From the NCBI GenBank assembly GCA_021234155.1, contig JAJEKV010000003.1:17716386-17780385 (forward strand): a DNA stretch of 64,000 bases. The letters are read 5' to 3'. The position numbers and the translations under genes were made by a program. Shown piece after piece: positions 48,290 through 55,819 of this stretch. Below the pieces are notes generated by a model, which searched no databases, was not told the DNA's origin, and saw nothing but the letters and a program-made list of their open reading frames with translations. Position 1 is the stretch's first letter. Each line of letters begins with the position of its first letter. This stretch comes from Isoetes taiwanensis. Its lineage: Eukaryota > Streptophyta > Lycopodiopsida > Isoetales > Isoetaceae.

Positions 48290-49852
48290 TGTGACGTTCC
48301 AGCACAGCATACGGTCCCAGGACGTATACTGTACTGCCTCGTCACGCGTACACGCCACCCCGACTGACATGTACGCCGACGTGTAGCCAGGCGGGTAGCC
48401 CCTAGGGGGCAACTTGCAAGGTATGTGCATTTATTATGCACATTTACCAATGTGCACATTTATCTAGGTGCACATTTTCCCATGTGGACACCTTTATGCC
48501 ACCTAGCCATTAAAGGCAAGTGGGCCATACCCAATTATCCCACATGCTTAAAGGGATAATTGGAAACCCTAGCCCTAAACCCTTGTCTATTTAGGTTAGG
48601 GAAACCCTAACTTGCTATTTTCGTCCATAGGGTTTTAGAGCTCTGTTTTGGCTGCCCCAGGAGCCAAAATCGCCTCCTAGACGCTGTTTAAGCGAATTGC
48701 ACCATTAGTTTCCCTTGATTCGAGCAGTTCAGCAGGATGGTCGAACTCAGGTCAGGAGGAGCAACCCAGGGATCAGGTATTTAGTAAATTTAATAGCCTA
48801 AACCGTCTTCCAGTCATTGTATCAGTAGGTTTAGCCTATTAAATTGCCCATAGCAGCCTCCTAGATTCCCAGAACTAAAGAACCTAACTATATGATATAG
48901 ATTAGATCTAGTTCTTTAGTTCTTCTGTGATGTATATGGATGATGTATCTCTGTGAACTCCTTGTATTGGGAAGGGGGGTAGAGGCCCTAAAGCTTGGTA
49001 GTTGATGTTCCTAGAGTAGCCTCTCTAGCACACTATAGATTCGGCCTGTGTACAAGAACCACACCTGGTTGTGGGTGAAGGGGCCAGACTGGCTAAGAAG
49101 GAGGTTCGTGTTCTGACTCTTGAACGATCCCTCTGGTGTGTAAGGCCTACCGGGGATCATTGTGACTAGGTCTAATAGCTTGCCACTGAGTGCGGGCAAG
49201 GCATGGGCTCGACACCCGTGAAGTGGTGTTCACTTTCCAGTGGGTTCAGTCGAATATGGGCAGTGGCCCTCTAGTCACCTTGGGTCAGCACGTAGATCTC
49301 TGGAGGGAGTGATCCCTACCTGCCCCATCGGAACTGGGGAGATGCAACCCAGGAGTAGCCCTTTTGGCTATGCATCCGGCGGGCTACAGTCAGGTCCTAA
49401 CACTTTTCAGCCTACTCTGCAAAGTGTGCACAGGAGGGGCGGATGGAGTGGACAACCCTATGCCATGTTCTAATGCCAGCCAAATCCACATGAATTCTGT
49501 CTGCAGTGAACTCCGGGAGACCCAAGCCGTCAGTCGTCCCTTCGAGTCTGAGCCTTGGGTAGGAACCCCTATGTATGATGCTGATCATTGTCTATGCAGA
49601 TGTTGATGCACCCCACTCCTGGGTGGATATGTGATTATGTTGTTTACTGACATGTATGTTTACGCTTCCGCAGCTAGGTAGGCCCTGAGGGAGACAGGGT
49701 AAAATGACCCCTTCACTCTTCCCACTGGGACTCGTTACGGGTGCAGTGATATGTGGAGGGCCCCGTGACGTAAGATGGAGCTGGTATGGGGATGAACTCC
49801 CGCTTTGTATACCTGGTCGAGTGCGCCAGATATACGGGTAGGGGACGTCACA
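48290..49852 (+). mobile_element. 5' LTR of histone-carrying retrotransposon
   Basis: A 1563-bp LTR bounded by TGTGACGTTCC and GACGTCACA (TG...CA), followed two bases later by a primer binding site, which fixes the orientation. The family is shared with the isolated LTR at 30195-31703. A matching 3' LTR was not found downstream in the window, so the element is truncated or rearranged. Confidence 0.87.
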
Positions 49853-49853
49853 G

Positions 49854-49866
49854 TGGTATCAGAGCA
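49854..49866 (+). promoter_or_regulatory. primer binding site, initiator tRNA-Met type
   Basis: TGGTATCAGAGCA, complementary to the 3' end of plant initiator tRNA-Met, the common primer of plant LTR retrotransposons. It begins one base after the LTR end. Confidence 0.93.
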
Positions 49867-50059
49867 ATGTTCTTGGAGACCAAGAGCAAAGCACTGGCAA
49901 TGCTCCCAGTAGTATTAACTTGATAGGATCCTCAAACCTCGAAAAGTGGGAAAAAAAAATTTCTCATCTTTGTAGTTTATGCTAAGCTAGTAACAGTTAA
50001 GCGAACTGGAACATAATAAGACTAAAAATAAGTGAGCCAAAACCTTCTCAGGCAAGGTG

Positions 50060-50126
50060 GTCTCACACGTCGCGCCTGGTCAAAGAACTGAACTTTAGTT
50101 TTTGAGCAGGGCGCTACGTGTGAGAC
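50060..50126. repeat. 67-bp inverted repeat in element leader, copy 1
   Basis: Perfect 11-bp outer arms GTCTCACACGT / ACGTGTGAGAC, with further pairing inward (GCGCC-TGGTC against GAGCAGGGCGC and AAAGAACT against AGTTTTT). As RNA or DNA it can fold into one long hairpin. Repeated at 50254-50319 and, half decayed, at 52157-52212. Confidence 0.88.
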
Positions 50127-50253
50127 ATTGAGACAAGAATACCTTAAAACTTGATAAATTTCACAAAAGTAATATGGTAAGGCGAGTTCCAAGGTAAGAA
50201 TCAGTTAGAATAGTATGTTTAAATCACTTAAATTACTTAAAAAAGTGTAAAGA

Positions 50254-50319
50254 TCTCACACGTCGCGCCTGGTCTAAAAACTAAACTCTAGTTTTTGAAC
50301 AGGGCGCTACGTGTGAGAC
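50254..50319. repeat. 66-bp inverted repeat in element leader, copy 2
   Basis: Same unit as at 50060, with both arms intact (TCTCACACGTCGCGCCTGG ... AGGGCGCTACGTGTGAGA). It lies about 100 bp upstream of the TATA box of the histone-like gene. Confidence 0.88.
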
Positions 50320-50417
50320 CAATAATTAGAAAACTCTGAAATAAGTGTATGTTTTAAGTAAATGGGTGCCTTGGCACGTTAAATAGAGCAACTTGAATTT
50401 TGACCTAAAATTGCCAA

Positions 50418-50428
50418 AGCTATAAATA
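50418..50428 (+). promoter_or_regulatory. TATA box of the H3-like gene
   Basis: GCTATAAATAG lies about 110 bp upstream of the ATG at 50530 and downstream of the LTR and leader. It suggests the histone-like gene has its own promoter in addition to the LTR. The 5' leader after it is CT-rich, as in many plant transcripts. Confidence 0.65.
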
Positions 50429-50529
50429 GATGTAGACCCCACCCTTCTGCACGTTCCTGCCCTAGAAATCCGCTCTCCCTCACCTAGGCGATCTTCGGGC
50501 GCTGACATTCGATCGACGAGCCGTCAAAC

Positions 50530-51881
50530 ATGGCACGGACCAAACAGACTGCCAGGAAGGCCCGCCCAGGCGAATCTCCCAGCGCCCATGATCCTGGCCT
50601 GATACAGAGGATGCTTCAGGAGCGCCTTCTCAGGCTTGACCAGTCTTCATCAATGAGAGAGCAGCTTCGGGTGAACACCAAAACGAAGGATCCCAGCAGG
50701 TCGAGGACGATGCACACTCCGACGCGGGAACAGAGGTCCTAGGCGAAGAGCAGCCGGATGTTATGCAGAAAATTCTCGACGAAGTAGAGGAGGAGCAAAG
50801 GAAGAAGAAGCAGGAACAAGATCGGGTAGCCGAGGAACGTGAGGAGCAAAGGCAGCCGACTCCCGAGCCAACCATCGAGGAGCAACTCGAAGCTTGGGTT
50901 CAAGAGAAGGAGGCCGAGGAGCGAGAAGAGCAAAGGGAACCAATGCTCGAGCCAAGCGAAGCACAGGACCTCGCGGCGTGGATCAGAAAGCACGAAGCAA
51001 AGGAACGCCACCGAGAAAAGAAGAGGGAAGAAAAGAAGAGGAAGAGAGAAGAGGAGGAGAAGAAAGCAGCAGAGGAACTGAAGAAGAAGAAGGGGAAGTT
51101 TGTGGTGGGGCCAAGGAAGCTCAAGGAAGTTCCGCCAACTAAGAAGCCCAACCCCAAGATCGTCATCAACGAACGAACAGCTAACCAGCCCCCGCCCTCC
51201 TCCGACGATTCTGATGAAGACTATGACCCCAACACTGAGGGGGCAAGCTCTTCCAAACCCCCGGTTGTTGAGTACGTAGTACCTGAGCAGATAGCGGCCG
51301 AGCAGGAGCAGCCGAACCCAGTGCAGAAACCCCCTAAATATCCGGCTTGGGACAGGAAGAAACAGCCACGGCCTGCCAGAGAATCCTATGTCACGGACCC
51401 CGTCAAGATCTACGAGCGAAAGATGAGGGAACACGAGGCTTATATGAAGATGTGGGAGGCTTACAACTCCTACTACCAGGGGAACAGGGTCAGAACCATC
51501 GAGGGTGGACATCCAACGAAGAGCCAGACACTAAGGCCGCCACCACCAAAGCCCAAGGTTCCTAAGAAGCCAGCCAAGAAGAAGCCCAGCAGGAAGGAGA
51601 TCGAGAGAAGAGCACTAAGAGAGATTAAGCACTTCCAGCGCAGTTACGGCCTCCTAATTCCCCGTGCCCCCTTTGCTCGTCTAGTTAGAGAAGTCATGCA
51701 GGACTTCAACACTGGCATGAGGGTCACAGATGAGATGCTGCTGGCACTGCAGGAAGCGGCTGAGCAGAGGATAGTGCAACATTTTGAAGACTCGACAGCT
51801 TGCACTGTTCATGCAAAGCGAGTAACCCTCATGAGGAAGGACATGCAATTAGCTAGCTTAATTAAGGGAGATCCCAAATAA
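50530..51881 (+). CDS. giant histone H3-like protein carried by an LTR element (tail and fold in two frames)
   Basis: The first frame (50530-50742) opens MARTKQTARKARPGESPS. The first nine residues after Met equal the canonical H3 tail, with K4 and K9 kept, S10 replaced by A and K14 by E. The second frame (open from 50640, stop at 51879) encodes three parts. First come charged coiled-coil repeats with two related units ending EEQLEAWVQEKEAEE and AQDLAAWIRKHEAKE. A K/E-rich nuclear-like stretch and a proline-rich linker (PPPPKPKVPKKPAKKKPSRK) follow. Last is a complete H3 histone fold of 89 residues from ALREIKHFQRS to IKGDPK (51612-51878). It aligns to H3 residues 47-135 without a gap, roughly half identical by hand count. 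Retained: F78, R83, C110, H113, K115, R116, K122, D123, L126. Changed: K56R, K79N, R128S, R129L. The two frames overlap from 50640 to 50742 and differ by one base; a lost base is the simplest cause. No CENH3-type loop insertion. AATAAA overlaps the stop. Role in chromatin is inference. Confidence 0.88.
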
Positions 51882-52156
51882 ACATTTTGTAAATAATAAA
51901 AAAATTTTGTAATATAAAACAATTTGAGTAGTTTATGTGTCCATTCTTGCTTAATTAGGACAAGTTAGCAAGTAGTAGCTTTTGTTTTAGTAAAATAGCA
52001 CATTCCTAGACCAAAAAGTGTGAGACCTTGGCCAAAATTGCCCAAAACAGCTCCAAATTGACCAAGTAAGGGGTCGATTCTGCTTAATTTGATGAGTCTG
52101 TCATCCTTACACCCTTAGTTACCCAATGGACATGTTTTGATCAAAATGGGACTGAT
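51882..52156. other. 3' flank of the H3-like gene
   Basis: AATAAA at the stop codon and AATAATAAAA just after it could serve polyadenylation. GTGTGAGACC at 52019-52028 may be a decayed arm of the leader repeat. Confidence 0.45.
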
Positions 52157-52212
52157 GTCTCACACGTCGCGCCTGGTCAAGAAACTAAAGTCCAGCTTTT
52201 GAACGAGGCGCT
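52157..52212. repeat. inverted-repeat unit, copy 3 (right arm decayed)
   Basis: GTCTCACACGTCGCGCCTGG and the centre AACTAAAGTCCAGCTTTTGAAC match copies 1 and 2; after GGCGCT the right arm diverges. It precedes a second TATA box at 52349 at about the spacing seen for copy 2. Confidence 0.8.
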
Positions 52213-52348
52213 CCTTAGGTAATCTAGTCATGCTCAAACCCTTAAATTAGTCTTCCAATTCCCATTTAGACCTCAATATAGGCTAGAATTGCCCAACCCC
52301 AAGAATTTTTCAAGTCTCCCAAAAAAAAAAATTAGGGTTTCCCCCTTT

Positions 52349-52358
52349 TTCTATAAAT
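52349..52358 (+). promoter_or_regulatory. second TATA box after inverted-repeat copy 3
   Basis: CTATAAATAG, about 190 bp after the start of copy 3, followed by a CT-rich leader like that of the H3-like gene. The sequence beyond has ATGs (for example 52474) but no open frame I recognise. This may be the promoter of a second, decayed gene of the element. Confidence 0.45.
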
Positions 52359-53080
52359 AGGCCCCTCATTTCTTACGTAGCACCCTACGAGTTTGCTCCT
52401 GCCCCATTAGCCAATTTCCCAGCTCCCTGAGGCGCTCTTGCATCCGTTTGCTAGTCTCTTCCTCGCTAGATTCATGGCAACCTCTGATTTCAGGTGATGG
52501 TACAGCGCCAGCGCTCATGCTGCCGACGCGGACGTCAATGAGATTTTTGCGAGTCTTCCGGAAAGAGATAGATGTCCAAGCAACCTTGCACGCAACCCCA
52601 GCATACACAAACATACACAACCCAACACCCATACACAAACATTTTTCAACAGGAATTTAACAGCAACCTTTGGCCTCCATGGATTCTTGTGGTGAGAAAC
52701 TAAAGTGGGAAACTTTTCTGCTTGTTAGCACAAGGATCTAGAAGCCTTGGAATTTGCTTAATAACTGCCTCAAAATCTAAAAATGCATGGTAATTTTTTG
52801 CAAGCTTCATTCGGAATGAGCCATAAAACAATATCCAATAGCGCAATCCTGTATTAATCAGCTGGTAGGATATGAAAGCCTACCAAACCCGGCCGAAAAA
52901 TTGCTGTTTTAGCATAGATAACTTAACCAAACATATCCATATCATACACTATCAAAAAGATCTCGGAGAGAGCTTTCCAACGCAATAAAAATCATCTCAA
53001 ACAGAGCTCTGGATCAAAAGTTATGATAAGAAATGTGTTGCCGGCGGGGAAACTGCACTACATGCGCCCTTCAAGCCCTT

Positions 53081-53257
53081 CATGTGCCCATTATGCATTA
53101 CACGCACAAAAAAAAGGCTTTTGTTGTGAGCCATTGGTTCATGTGCCCATTATGCACCACACGCACAAAAAAAGGGCTTTTGTTGTGAGCCATTAGTTCA
53201 TGTGCCCATTATGCACCACACGCACAAAAAAGGGGCTTTTGTTGTAAGCCATTGGTT
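53081..53257 (+). repeat. three 59-bp tandem units
   Basis: Units at 53081-53139, 53140-53198 and 53199-53257, each CATGTGCCCATTATGCA-CACGCAC then an A-run and GGCTTTTGTTGTGAGCC, with few differences. Confidence 0.9.
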
Positions 53258-54448: not shown

Positions 54449-54654
54449 AACAATGAGAAACTTCGGATGCTCATAACACAACAAGTATAACAATGAGAAA
54501 CTTGAGATGCTCATAAAACAACAAGTACAAAGAGAAAAACCAATTTACCTTAACAATGAGAAACTTCGGATGCTCATAACACAACAAGTATAACAATGAG
54601 AAACTTGAGATGCTCATAAAACAACAAGTACAAAGAGAAAAACCAATTTACCTT
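54449..54654 (+). repeat. 103-bp tandem duplication
   Basis: 54449-54551 and 54552-54654 are essentially identical. Each unit itself contains two related halves around CAATGAGAAACTT-GATGCTCATAA. Confidence 0.9.
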
Positions 54655-54672
54655 ATATTGTTTATCATATAC

Positions 54673-55155
54673 TGCTTGTAAACAACCTGTAGAATAGAGA
54701 AGGAGATGGGAGACAAGCCACGGTCGAAGGAGATGGGAAAAAAAGGTAAGAATAAAGATATGACATGGAGGGACATGTGGCATACCCGTGGCATAGCTAG
54801 AATTGCACGAAATCGTGCACCTCGGGTTAGGCAATCCTGTTTGTAAACAACCTATAGAACAGACAAAGGAGATGGGAGATGAAGCCACAGTCGAAGGAGA
54901 GGAAAAAAAAAGGTAAGGATAAAGGTATGGCGTGGGGGGACATGTGGCATACATGTGGCATAGCTAGAATTGCACGAAATCGTGCACCTCGGGTTAGGCA
55001 ACCCTGTTTGTAAACAACTTGTAGTACAGACGAAGGAGATGGGAGATGAAGCCAAGGTAAGAATAAAAGTATGGGGTGGCGGAACATGTGGCATACACGT
55101 GGCATAGCTAGAATTGCACGAAATCGTGCACTTCGGGTTAGGCAACCCAGCTTAA
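54673..55155 (+). repeat. double-hairpin repeat in three tandem copies
   Basis: Copies at about 54673-54838, 54839-55012 and 55013-55155. Each runs from TTGTAAACAAC through GGAGATGGGAGA, a GGTAAG-AT-AA block, TGTGGCATAC-CGTGGCATAGCTAG and the hairpins TTGCACGAAATCGTGCA and GGGTTAGGCAACC. The last copy ends in an A-run. Single members occur at 13845 and 46905. Confidence 0.85.
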
Positions 55156-55819
55156 AAAAAAAATCTATTTAATAAAAATATTGACATGAACTAGTGCAAT
55201 ATGTGGAATATATATTTCTACATTTATTTGCTTTATATTCGTAAGCATTTATTGAATGCCTTTTGAGTGTTGTGATACTAAAATATTGTTGTGTAATATG
55301 TGGGATCACAGTATATTCTGTAGGGCTTTCACGAGTCCATTTGGACCAATTCAATCACATACCTCGAGATATTATTCACTAAGACATGCTAGCTATTTCA
55401 AAGACATGCTAGCTATTTTATAGAGCCTAAGTGCTTGATTTATTTGATTCATAGAAGTCGCATTTAATTAAAGTGGGTTTCATTCCATTCCCACTTTTTT
55501 TTTTGGAACCCTGTTGTTTTACACGAAAAGGACGAAGGAAACTTTTAAAACCGCATTATTGCTTTAAAGATGCCTGTTTTTCTGTGAGAAAAAAAAATGT
55601 TAAGGAAAATTACGTGGTCTATTTTTCTCGGTTAGCGAGTCGAGAAGATAAAGAGCACAACTAAAACCAATGAAAATGCTATCTCTCTGTAAACAAAGTG
55701 CTGATCTGCCCTGAATTTTTATTCATAAATAATTTCATTACATTGTATTTTACAATGGTTGAAGATACTATGATGGTCGGGCTGACATAAATATTACATC
55801 ATCTTCGCACACAGACCAC

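Follow-up and report, generated by a model that had tools for sequence, protein, structure and literature searches.

A histone H3-fusion gene kept under selection in Ty3/gypsy chromoviruses of Isoetes taiwanensis

Results

The 64,000-nucleotide stretch of Isoetes taiwanensis DNA analyzed here (contig JAJEKV010000003.1; hereafter the window) contains, at positions 48290-52605, the 5′ piece of a Ty3/gypsy chromovirus, made up of a long terminal repeat (LTR), a primer site, a leader, and a gene in which a histone H3 fold is fused to a long preceding segment. The pol part of this type of element is that of an ordinary chromovirus; what is new is the cargo, an H3 that is kept under selection. The 5′ LTR (48290-49852, plus strand; TGTGACGT...ACGTCACA) was delimited by the primer site and, in other copies, by the polypurine tract. 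The primer binding site TGGTATCAGAGC (49854-49865, plus strand), which is of the initiator-Met tRNA type, is separated from the LTR by one base. An earlier interpretation made from the DNA letters alone (the sequence-only reading) had correctly recognized the LTR, the initiator-type primer site, and the leader, and had put the gap at two bases.

The gene begins at an ATG at 50530, 109 nt downstream of a TATA box (TATAAAT, 50421-50427, plus strand), and its product starts with MARTKQTARK, which, after Met, reproduces the first nine residues of the H3 tail exactly, as had been noticed. This tail frame (MARTKQTARKARPGESP..., 50530-50742, plus strand) runs to a stop at 50740-50742 and resembles the start of the joined frame in a relative, L050. 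The charged middle and the C-terminal fold are read in a different frame of 372 codons (50763-51881, plus strand), which is closed by the gap-free H3 fold described earlier (90 codons, 51609-51878, plus strand; PF00125, E = 1.6e-27; top PDB match histone H3, E = 2.4e-26). The fold carries the residues P63, A65, T85, E87, and L89, which are of the centromeric H3 (CenH3) type. Tail and fold, which the sequence-only reading had assigned to one gene, lie in two frames out of register in the window copy and are joined in other copies, e.g., in L050, whose H3-fusion occupies a stop-to-stop frame of 488 codons.

Because the window copy has a single LTR and its likeness to another relative, L039, ends at 52605, with no 3′ LTR of the element following, it is a 5′ fragment, the broken remnant of an element that is well formed elsewhere in the genome. 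In the assembly searched (1,658,258,908 bases in 1110 contigs), the LTR has at least 40 scored copies with 88-100% identity and the 372-residue protein has at least 110 scored matches with 68-100% identity, nearly all over more than 300 residues, the window copy being included in both counts; the observation is therefore not due to chance. The numbers of first-look candidates in the genome searches (8705, 8979, 8870, 2734, and 3211, and 69 for H4) are loose counts, of which the best 40-150 were scored, except for H4, where all 69 were.

The surroundings of other LTR copies place the gene within the element. Thirty LTR loci were examined among the best 40 scored, and ten of them are five-prime LTRs; nine of these ten, including the window, run into the H3 region, and L029 is the one that does not. 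At 24.72 Mb of contig C1034, a copy of the same family (family A) has both LTRs, which differ at 16 of 1557 aligned positions, and is flanked by the target-site duplication (TSD) ATAAT. The order of its interior, H3-fusion, ORF2, gag, reverse transcriptase (RT), RNase H, integrase, and chromodomain, identifies it as a Ty3/gypsy chromovirus. The pol order RT, RNase H, integrase is found in L039 (family A, split frames) and in L052, a member of a second H3-bearing family (family B), in one 948-codon frame, and the integrase ends in a C-terminal chromodomain in both (PF00385; E = 1e-9 in L039 and 3.3e-9 in L052). ORF2, the second accessory gene between H3 and gag (6470-7904 of L039, minus strand; 96-985 of L052), had no match in Pfam, and one piece of it compared with the PDB gave no useful match (best E = 0.044); its likeness between the two families is weak (23%, E = 1.8e-6).

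Family B has the same layout. The copy at 6.92 Mb of contig C1056 has a 1624-bp LTR that starts as the family A LTR does and is followed by an identical primer site, a 484-codon stop-to-stop H3-fusion frame, ORF2, gag, and a 948-codon stop-to-stop pol frame with a chromodomain; the start of the 3′ LTR is present and identical to the 5′ LTR over the 155 nt compared. Downstream of L043, the same gene order was found in a degraded state. Between L039 (A) and L052 (B), identity is 88% in a 105-residue piece of RT, 79% in RNase H, 78% in the integrase-chromodomain region, and 52% in gag, and the H3 folds of L050 (A) and L042 (B) are 48% identical; the 5′ genes therefore diverge much faster than the rest or were exchanged. 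The proposal that the H3-like gene belongs to an LTR retrotransposon and lies inside it is thus borne out by the nine of ten LTR loci, by the TSD-bearing copy with the gene between two LTRs, and by family B. In the Isoetes genome examined, the gene is neither a single host locus nor consistently missing from the LTR copies. Family B, ORF2, the body of gag, pol, and chromodomain, and the likeness of the family A fold to centromeric H3 go beyond what had been read from the window.

Selection on the H3 gene was estimated in a separate sample, because the loci read in detail (L040-L049 and L055-L074) had been chosen for long open frames. This sample consists of 20 copies chosen by likeness of the noncoding spacer behind the H3 gene. 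The fold is intact in 13 of the 20 and in the window copy. The ratio of nonsynonymous to synonymous divergence (dN/dS) of the fold is 0.154 in 20 rows (the spacer-selected copies and the window, with one rearranged row dropped), and 0.246 when the rearranged row is kept (21 rows); for the 14 intact rows it is 0.125. By the same method, the integrase end with the chromodomain gave 0.147 (13 LTR-selected copies), and three noncoding pseudo-frames from the same elements, used as a control, gave 0.62-0.93. These values show that the H3 fold is under purifying selection, about as strict as that on the integrase end, given the similar ratios.

Deeper comparisons used pairs of picked copies with dS near saturation, and their values are ratios of means. 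In family A, the fold gave 0.074 (225 of 276 pairs), the middle 0.215 (276 of 276), and the first 20 residues 0.402, with a median of 0.145 (166 of 276). In family B, the fold gave 0.035 (18 of 45 pairs), the linker 0.286 (25 of 45), and the N-terminal domain 0.092 (12 of 45). Of the two parts for which the sequence-only reading had suggested a test of purifying selection, the fold is clearly constrained, and the signal on the tail is weaker or unclear.

Beyond the window, 22 family A loci were read (L050, L051, and L055-L074), most of them selected for open frames; L055-L074 were taken from the best fusion-protein matches and chosen for long stop-free frames. In 15 of the 22, the H3 fold shares its frame with a MARTK start, and in L058 and L063 with a near form of it. 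In a sample of 31 loci including the window (5 without a recognizable start; L022 and L051 are one copy), a TATA box stands 108-110 nt upstream of the ATG in 23 of the 26 loci with a start. Residue K9 of the tail is kept in 23 of these 26, a count that is informative in that the pattern used to find the tail fixed most of residues 1-8 and left only K9 and later positions unbiased. A search with the family A fold returned 8870 first-look candidates, of which the best 150 were scored, down to E = 5.7e-44. On contig C1032 (11104019-11107648), three family A folds were seen about 1.68 kb apart on one strand, an arrangement that suggests a tandem array, and L099 (C923:871400-871850) is a further family A-like form with the motif LIPAAPF and a divergent stretch past alpha-1.

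Family B was found in a genome search with a histone profile, in which the best 150 of 8705 first-look candidates were scored; L040-L049 were taken from the best matches, mostly for their long frames. The 10 frames read are 396-494 codons from stop to stop, and the fold is preceded in them by an N-terminal domain (about 190 residues) and then a linker that varies. The fold is 85-89% identical to host H3 in the four compared (PF00125 E = 3.2e-42 for L042), and a Pfam scan of two family B proteins gave only chance-level matches outside it. In eight aligned N-terminal regions (L042, L046, L048, and others), the 190 residues look like a domain with conserved IPY...E.F and YLG motifs. Searched with this domain, the genome returned 2734 first-look candidates, of which the best 150 were scored, down to E = 2.4e-79. 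None of the 10 family B frames starts with ARTKQTARK, so the idea that the tail acts as a decoy for readers and writers of H3 marks could hold for family A only. L048 starts with MARTKGTK, which speaks for a shared origin of the H3 parts of the two families.

The two families appear to carry different types of H3. In a tree, family A stands next to three plant CenH3 sequences (support 96/92) and family B stands with canonical H3 at modest support (83/66); the tree has 100 columns, 10 of 24 family A rows, long branches, and no host CenH3, and its reference sequences (CenH3, Arabidopsis H3, and human) are provisional. Holding A and B together was weakly rejected (p-AU, approximately unbiased test, 0.037), as was holding four CenH3 together without A (p-AU 0.031). 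Seven positions set three plant CenH3, which agree with one another there, apart from H3; family A has the CenH3 residue at five of them, the same five as in the window fold, and family B at none. Other observations bring family A near H3: its loop 1 has the length of H3 in the alignment, without the longer CenH3 loop, its tail start is of the canonical type, its raw identity is 53/100 to host H3 versus 55/100 to rice CENH3, and canonical H3 chains make up all of the best 60 PDB matches listed for the window fold. We regard the CenH3 type of the family A fold as a strong lead and not as proof, because the reference sequences are provisional and host CenH3 was not found. A first DNA pattern aimed at host CenH3 had no match in the genome, and a second had 46 (20 forward, 26 reverse; 34 in a backward control) without revealing it; among 11 of the 46 that were read, nine are family A-like element copies and two (L103 and L105) are seemingly unrelated.

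The abundance of H3 is not paralleled by its partner. An H4 query of the genome brought up 69 first-look candidates; scoring of all of them left 43 matches, with 16 full-length genes in frames of 107-146 codons, so that amplified H4 was not found, no separate search for H2A or H2B having been made. With first-look candidates in the thousands for H3 versus 69 for H4, the elements presumably use host H4. Scans of IMG/VR with the family A and B proteins, based on six short peptide patterns per scan, found no viral relatives.

The remaining features of the window lie around the H3 gene. A 66-nt imperfect palindrome is present twice in the leader (50061-50126 and 50254-50319, plus strand) and once in part upstream of ORF2 (52158-52223, plus strand); among the loci compared, matches to it are confined to the window and family A. 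It precedes both accessory genes of family A and may be a control element. By sequence inspection, a second TATA box lies upstream of ORF2 (52352-52358, plus strand), and the putative ORF2 start region follows at 52474-52605 (plus strand), where 52474 is the first ATG past the TATA box; the L039 frame opens at about 52562. When the whole window was scanned with the A and B element proteins, matches with E ≤ 1e-6 were found only at the 48290-52605 element. Elsewhere, a diverged LTR-like stretch at 29852-31703 matches portions of the family B LTR and of the sequence preceding it at 71-86% identity, and short tandem repeats with unit lengths of 59, 103, and roughly 144-167 nt occupy 53079-53257 and 54449-55192, downstream of the fragment.

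Discussion

Given an H3 fold under selection in two families of elements, we think it probable, on the basis of sequence comparison, that the H3 variant encoded by the elements is built into nucleosomes together with host H4 and that its long extension acts on silencing or integration. In the mechanism we propose, the H3-fusion gene, placed between primer site and gag and apparently served by its own TATA box, would encode a protein that binds host H4 and relies on host chaperones for its deposition, so that nucleosomes containing it could form. The N-terminal part, about 300-400 residues long, would project outward and alter the chromatin into which the protein is built, most likely by keeping the chromatin of the element open against silencing or by docking the integration complex. 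Self-marking of the element, as proposed in the sequence-only reading, may be another effect. Family A, with a putative CenH3-type fold and a canonical tail start, might use or compete with the CenH3 loading route, and family B, with a near-canonical fold, might use the general H3 route.

At residues of the H3-H3′ contact and of the inner DNA contacts, the majority residue in both families is that of H3, namely at C110, H113, A114, D123, L126, I130, R69, R72, R83, R116, V117, and T118. At the chaperone site, residues 87-90, family B has FAIL or HAIL and family A has EMLL, which is near the CenH3 motif. It is thinkable that the integrase chromodomain and the H3 encoded by one and the same element form a pair of reader and substrate.

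Several results weigh against this proposal. Family A differs from H3 at the outer DNA contacts H39, Y41, R42, T45, R63, L65, F84, and S86, usually has Q in place of K122, and retains R129 in 48%; because of these changes, a family A nucleosome would differ from the canonical one or might not form. Functional residues are not kept significantly more often than others, either in family A (17/23 vs 33/63, Fisher p = 0.088) or in family B (21/23 vs 56/63, p = 1.0). The noncoding control has a dS-like divergence of 0.07-0.09, versus synonymous values of 0.22 in the integrase end and 0.33-0.36 in the H3 fold; being less diverged, and possibly blurred by recombination or constraint, it falls short of an ideal neutral reference. 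The window copy and the TSD-bearing family A element both have broken frames (several in the latter, including the H3 frame near its start), so family A is not shown to be active at present. Finally, the structure of the window fold predicted by AlphaFold from the single sequence was of poor quality (pLDDT, the model's confidence score, 68.9), and a Foldseek search with it was uninformative: nothing matched at E ≤ 0.001, and the best 50 rows contained no histone.

Four other explanations were weighed. The first is that the family A protein is a selfish centromeric histone, which joins or initiates chromatin at centromeres and in this way steers integration or segregation. The grouping of family A with plant CenH3 (96/92, provisional references) and its five of seven CenH3-diagnostic residues, against none of seven in family B, are what one would expect from it. 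Nevertheless, the copies listed among the matches appear spread over many contigs, loop 1 is as long as in H3, a host CenH3 for direct comparison was not found, and family B does without the CenH3 type, using ordinary H3. Lycophyte meiosis is moreover treated as symmetric in PMC11687628, which would leave little room for centromere drive. We therefore consider this explanation unlikely, although it fares best among the alternatives.

Slightly less likely still is that the H3-fusion protein acts in the particle or on the cDNA, by nucleocapsid-like condensation or by pre-loading of H3-H4, and plays no part in host chromatin. The gene does travel with gag-pol, the part before the fold is basic, and some DNA viruses package DNA with their own histones (see PMC9145170). 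On the other hand, an amplified H4 partner was not found, the H3-H3′ contact residues, which packaging alone might not need, are kept, and the gene, which is not fused to gag, has a TATA box of its own.

A passive capture, in which fragments of H3 genes were acquired by accident and multiplied as functionless cargo, is very improbable. LTR elements do take up host sequence, seven of the 20 spacer-selected folds are not intact, and one of the ten five-prime LTR loci lacks the gene; we nevertheless rejected passive cargo on the dN/dS of the fold measured against the integrase and noncoding controls of the same elements, and the same gene slot is occupied in two families whose H3 folds are only 48% alike, with long open frames in many copies. 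That the H3 gene is a separate repeat or host locus merely adjoining LTRs, as the single LTR and the truncation at 52605 of the window copy might suggest, is hardly credible and was rejected in view of the LTR, primer site, leader, and H3 region in nine of ten five-prime loci, the TSD and downstream gag-pol in another copy, and the identical order in family B.

Returning to the proposal that the encoded H3 enters nucleosomes, we offer a broader and much more tentative version of it: a lineage of Isoetes chromoviruses may have taken up two different H3 paralogues in the slot before gag, one of the CenH3 type in family A and one of the canonical type in family B, and may thereby write its own nucleosomes, chromatin state, or integration address without relying on host marks. 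Histones have so far been known from cells and some DNA viruses. A selfish retroelement with a selected H3 at thousands of candidate places would stand for direct action of a transposon on nucleosomes rather than on silencing enzymes, and the sequence data suggest that the H3-bearing elements modify their own chromatin environment. The question of how transposons evade or select chromatin thus becomes testable in one plant. The elements also supply nucleosome biochemistry with natural H3 variants that have very long N-terminal parts, one of them combining a CenH3-like fold with a canonical tail start, and automatic counts of H3 genes in the Isoetes genome may be dominated by them.

Comparison with known systems

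Plant CenH3 shares P63, A65, T85, E87, and L89 with the family A fold. In contrast to plant CenH3, family A has V84, where two of three CenH3 have W, does not share T75 and G131 of CenH3, lacks the longer loop 1, and combines a canonical H3 tail start with a long insert.

The closest relatives of the body of the element are the Ty3/gypsy chromoviruses, including those of non-seed plants (PMC2864245), with which it shares LTRs, the initiator-Met-type primer site, gag, RT, RNase H, and the integrase-chromodomain. Unlike them, the Isoetes elements have two additional genes downstream of the primer site and ahead of gag, beginning with the H3 fusion; PMC2864245, on non-seed-plant chromoviruses, contains the word histone once, and the passages compared describe no encoded histone. 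The Gypsy elements with AlkB/2-ODD of Phalaenopsis (PMC9289625) are alike in keeping a host-type gene in an additional ORF (open reading frame). The screen of 121 angiosperm genomes in that paper reported 15 extra domains in LTR elements, and the portion of its text available names PMD, G-patch, AIR1, DUF1409, YgdH, L26/KOW, B3, ArgoL2, and 2-ODD, and no histone. Giant elements of the Ogre type (PMC6431247) resemble the Isoetes elements in having extra ORFs within plant gypsy elements and long LTRs; their extra ORFs are of unknown function, and the word histone does not occur in that review. A retrotransposon-encoded core histone was not found in searches of open-access PMC papers, and the main text of the Isoetes taiwanensis genome paper (PMC8566536) does not use the word histone.

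The nearest parallels to the cargo are found in viruses. The bracovirus H4 is a lone core histone, as the H3 described here appears to be, and it joins host nucleosomes (PMC5423620); its carrier is a DNA virus. Single H3 genes of xenomavirus, the phycodnavirus DSLPV1, and others (PMC9145170) likewise represent a lone core histone with a near-canonical fold, some with extended N-terminal tails as in the Isoetes elements, and their SAIL or TAIL at the chaperone site is close to the FAIL or HAIL of family B. The terms "retrotranspos" and "retrovir" do not occur in PMC9145170. These viral H3 belong to DNA viruses; the Isoetes H3 belong to retroelements, have several times more sequence ahead of the fold, and in one of the two families appear to be CenH3-like.

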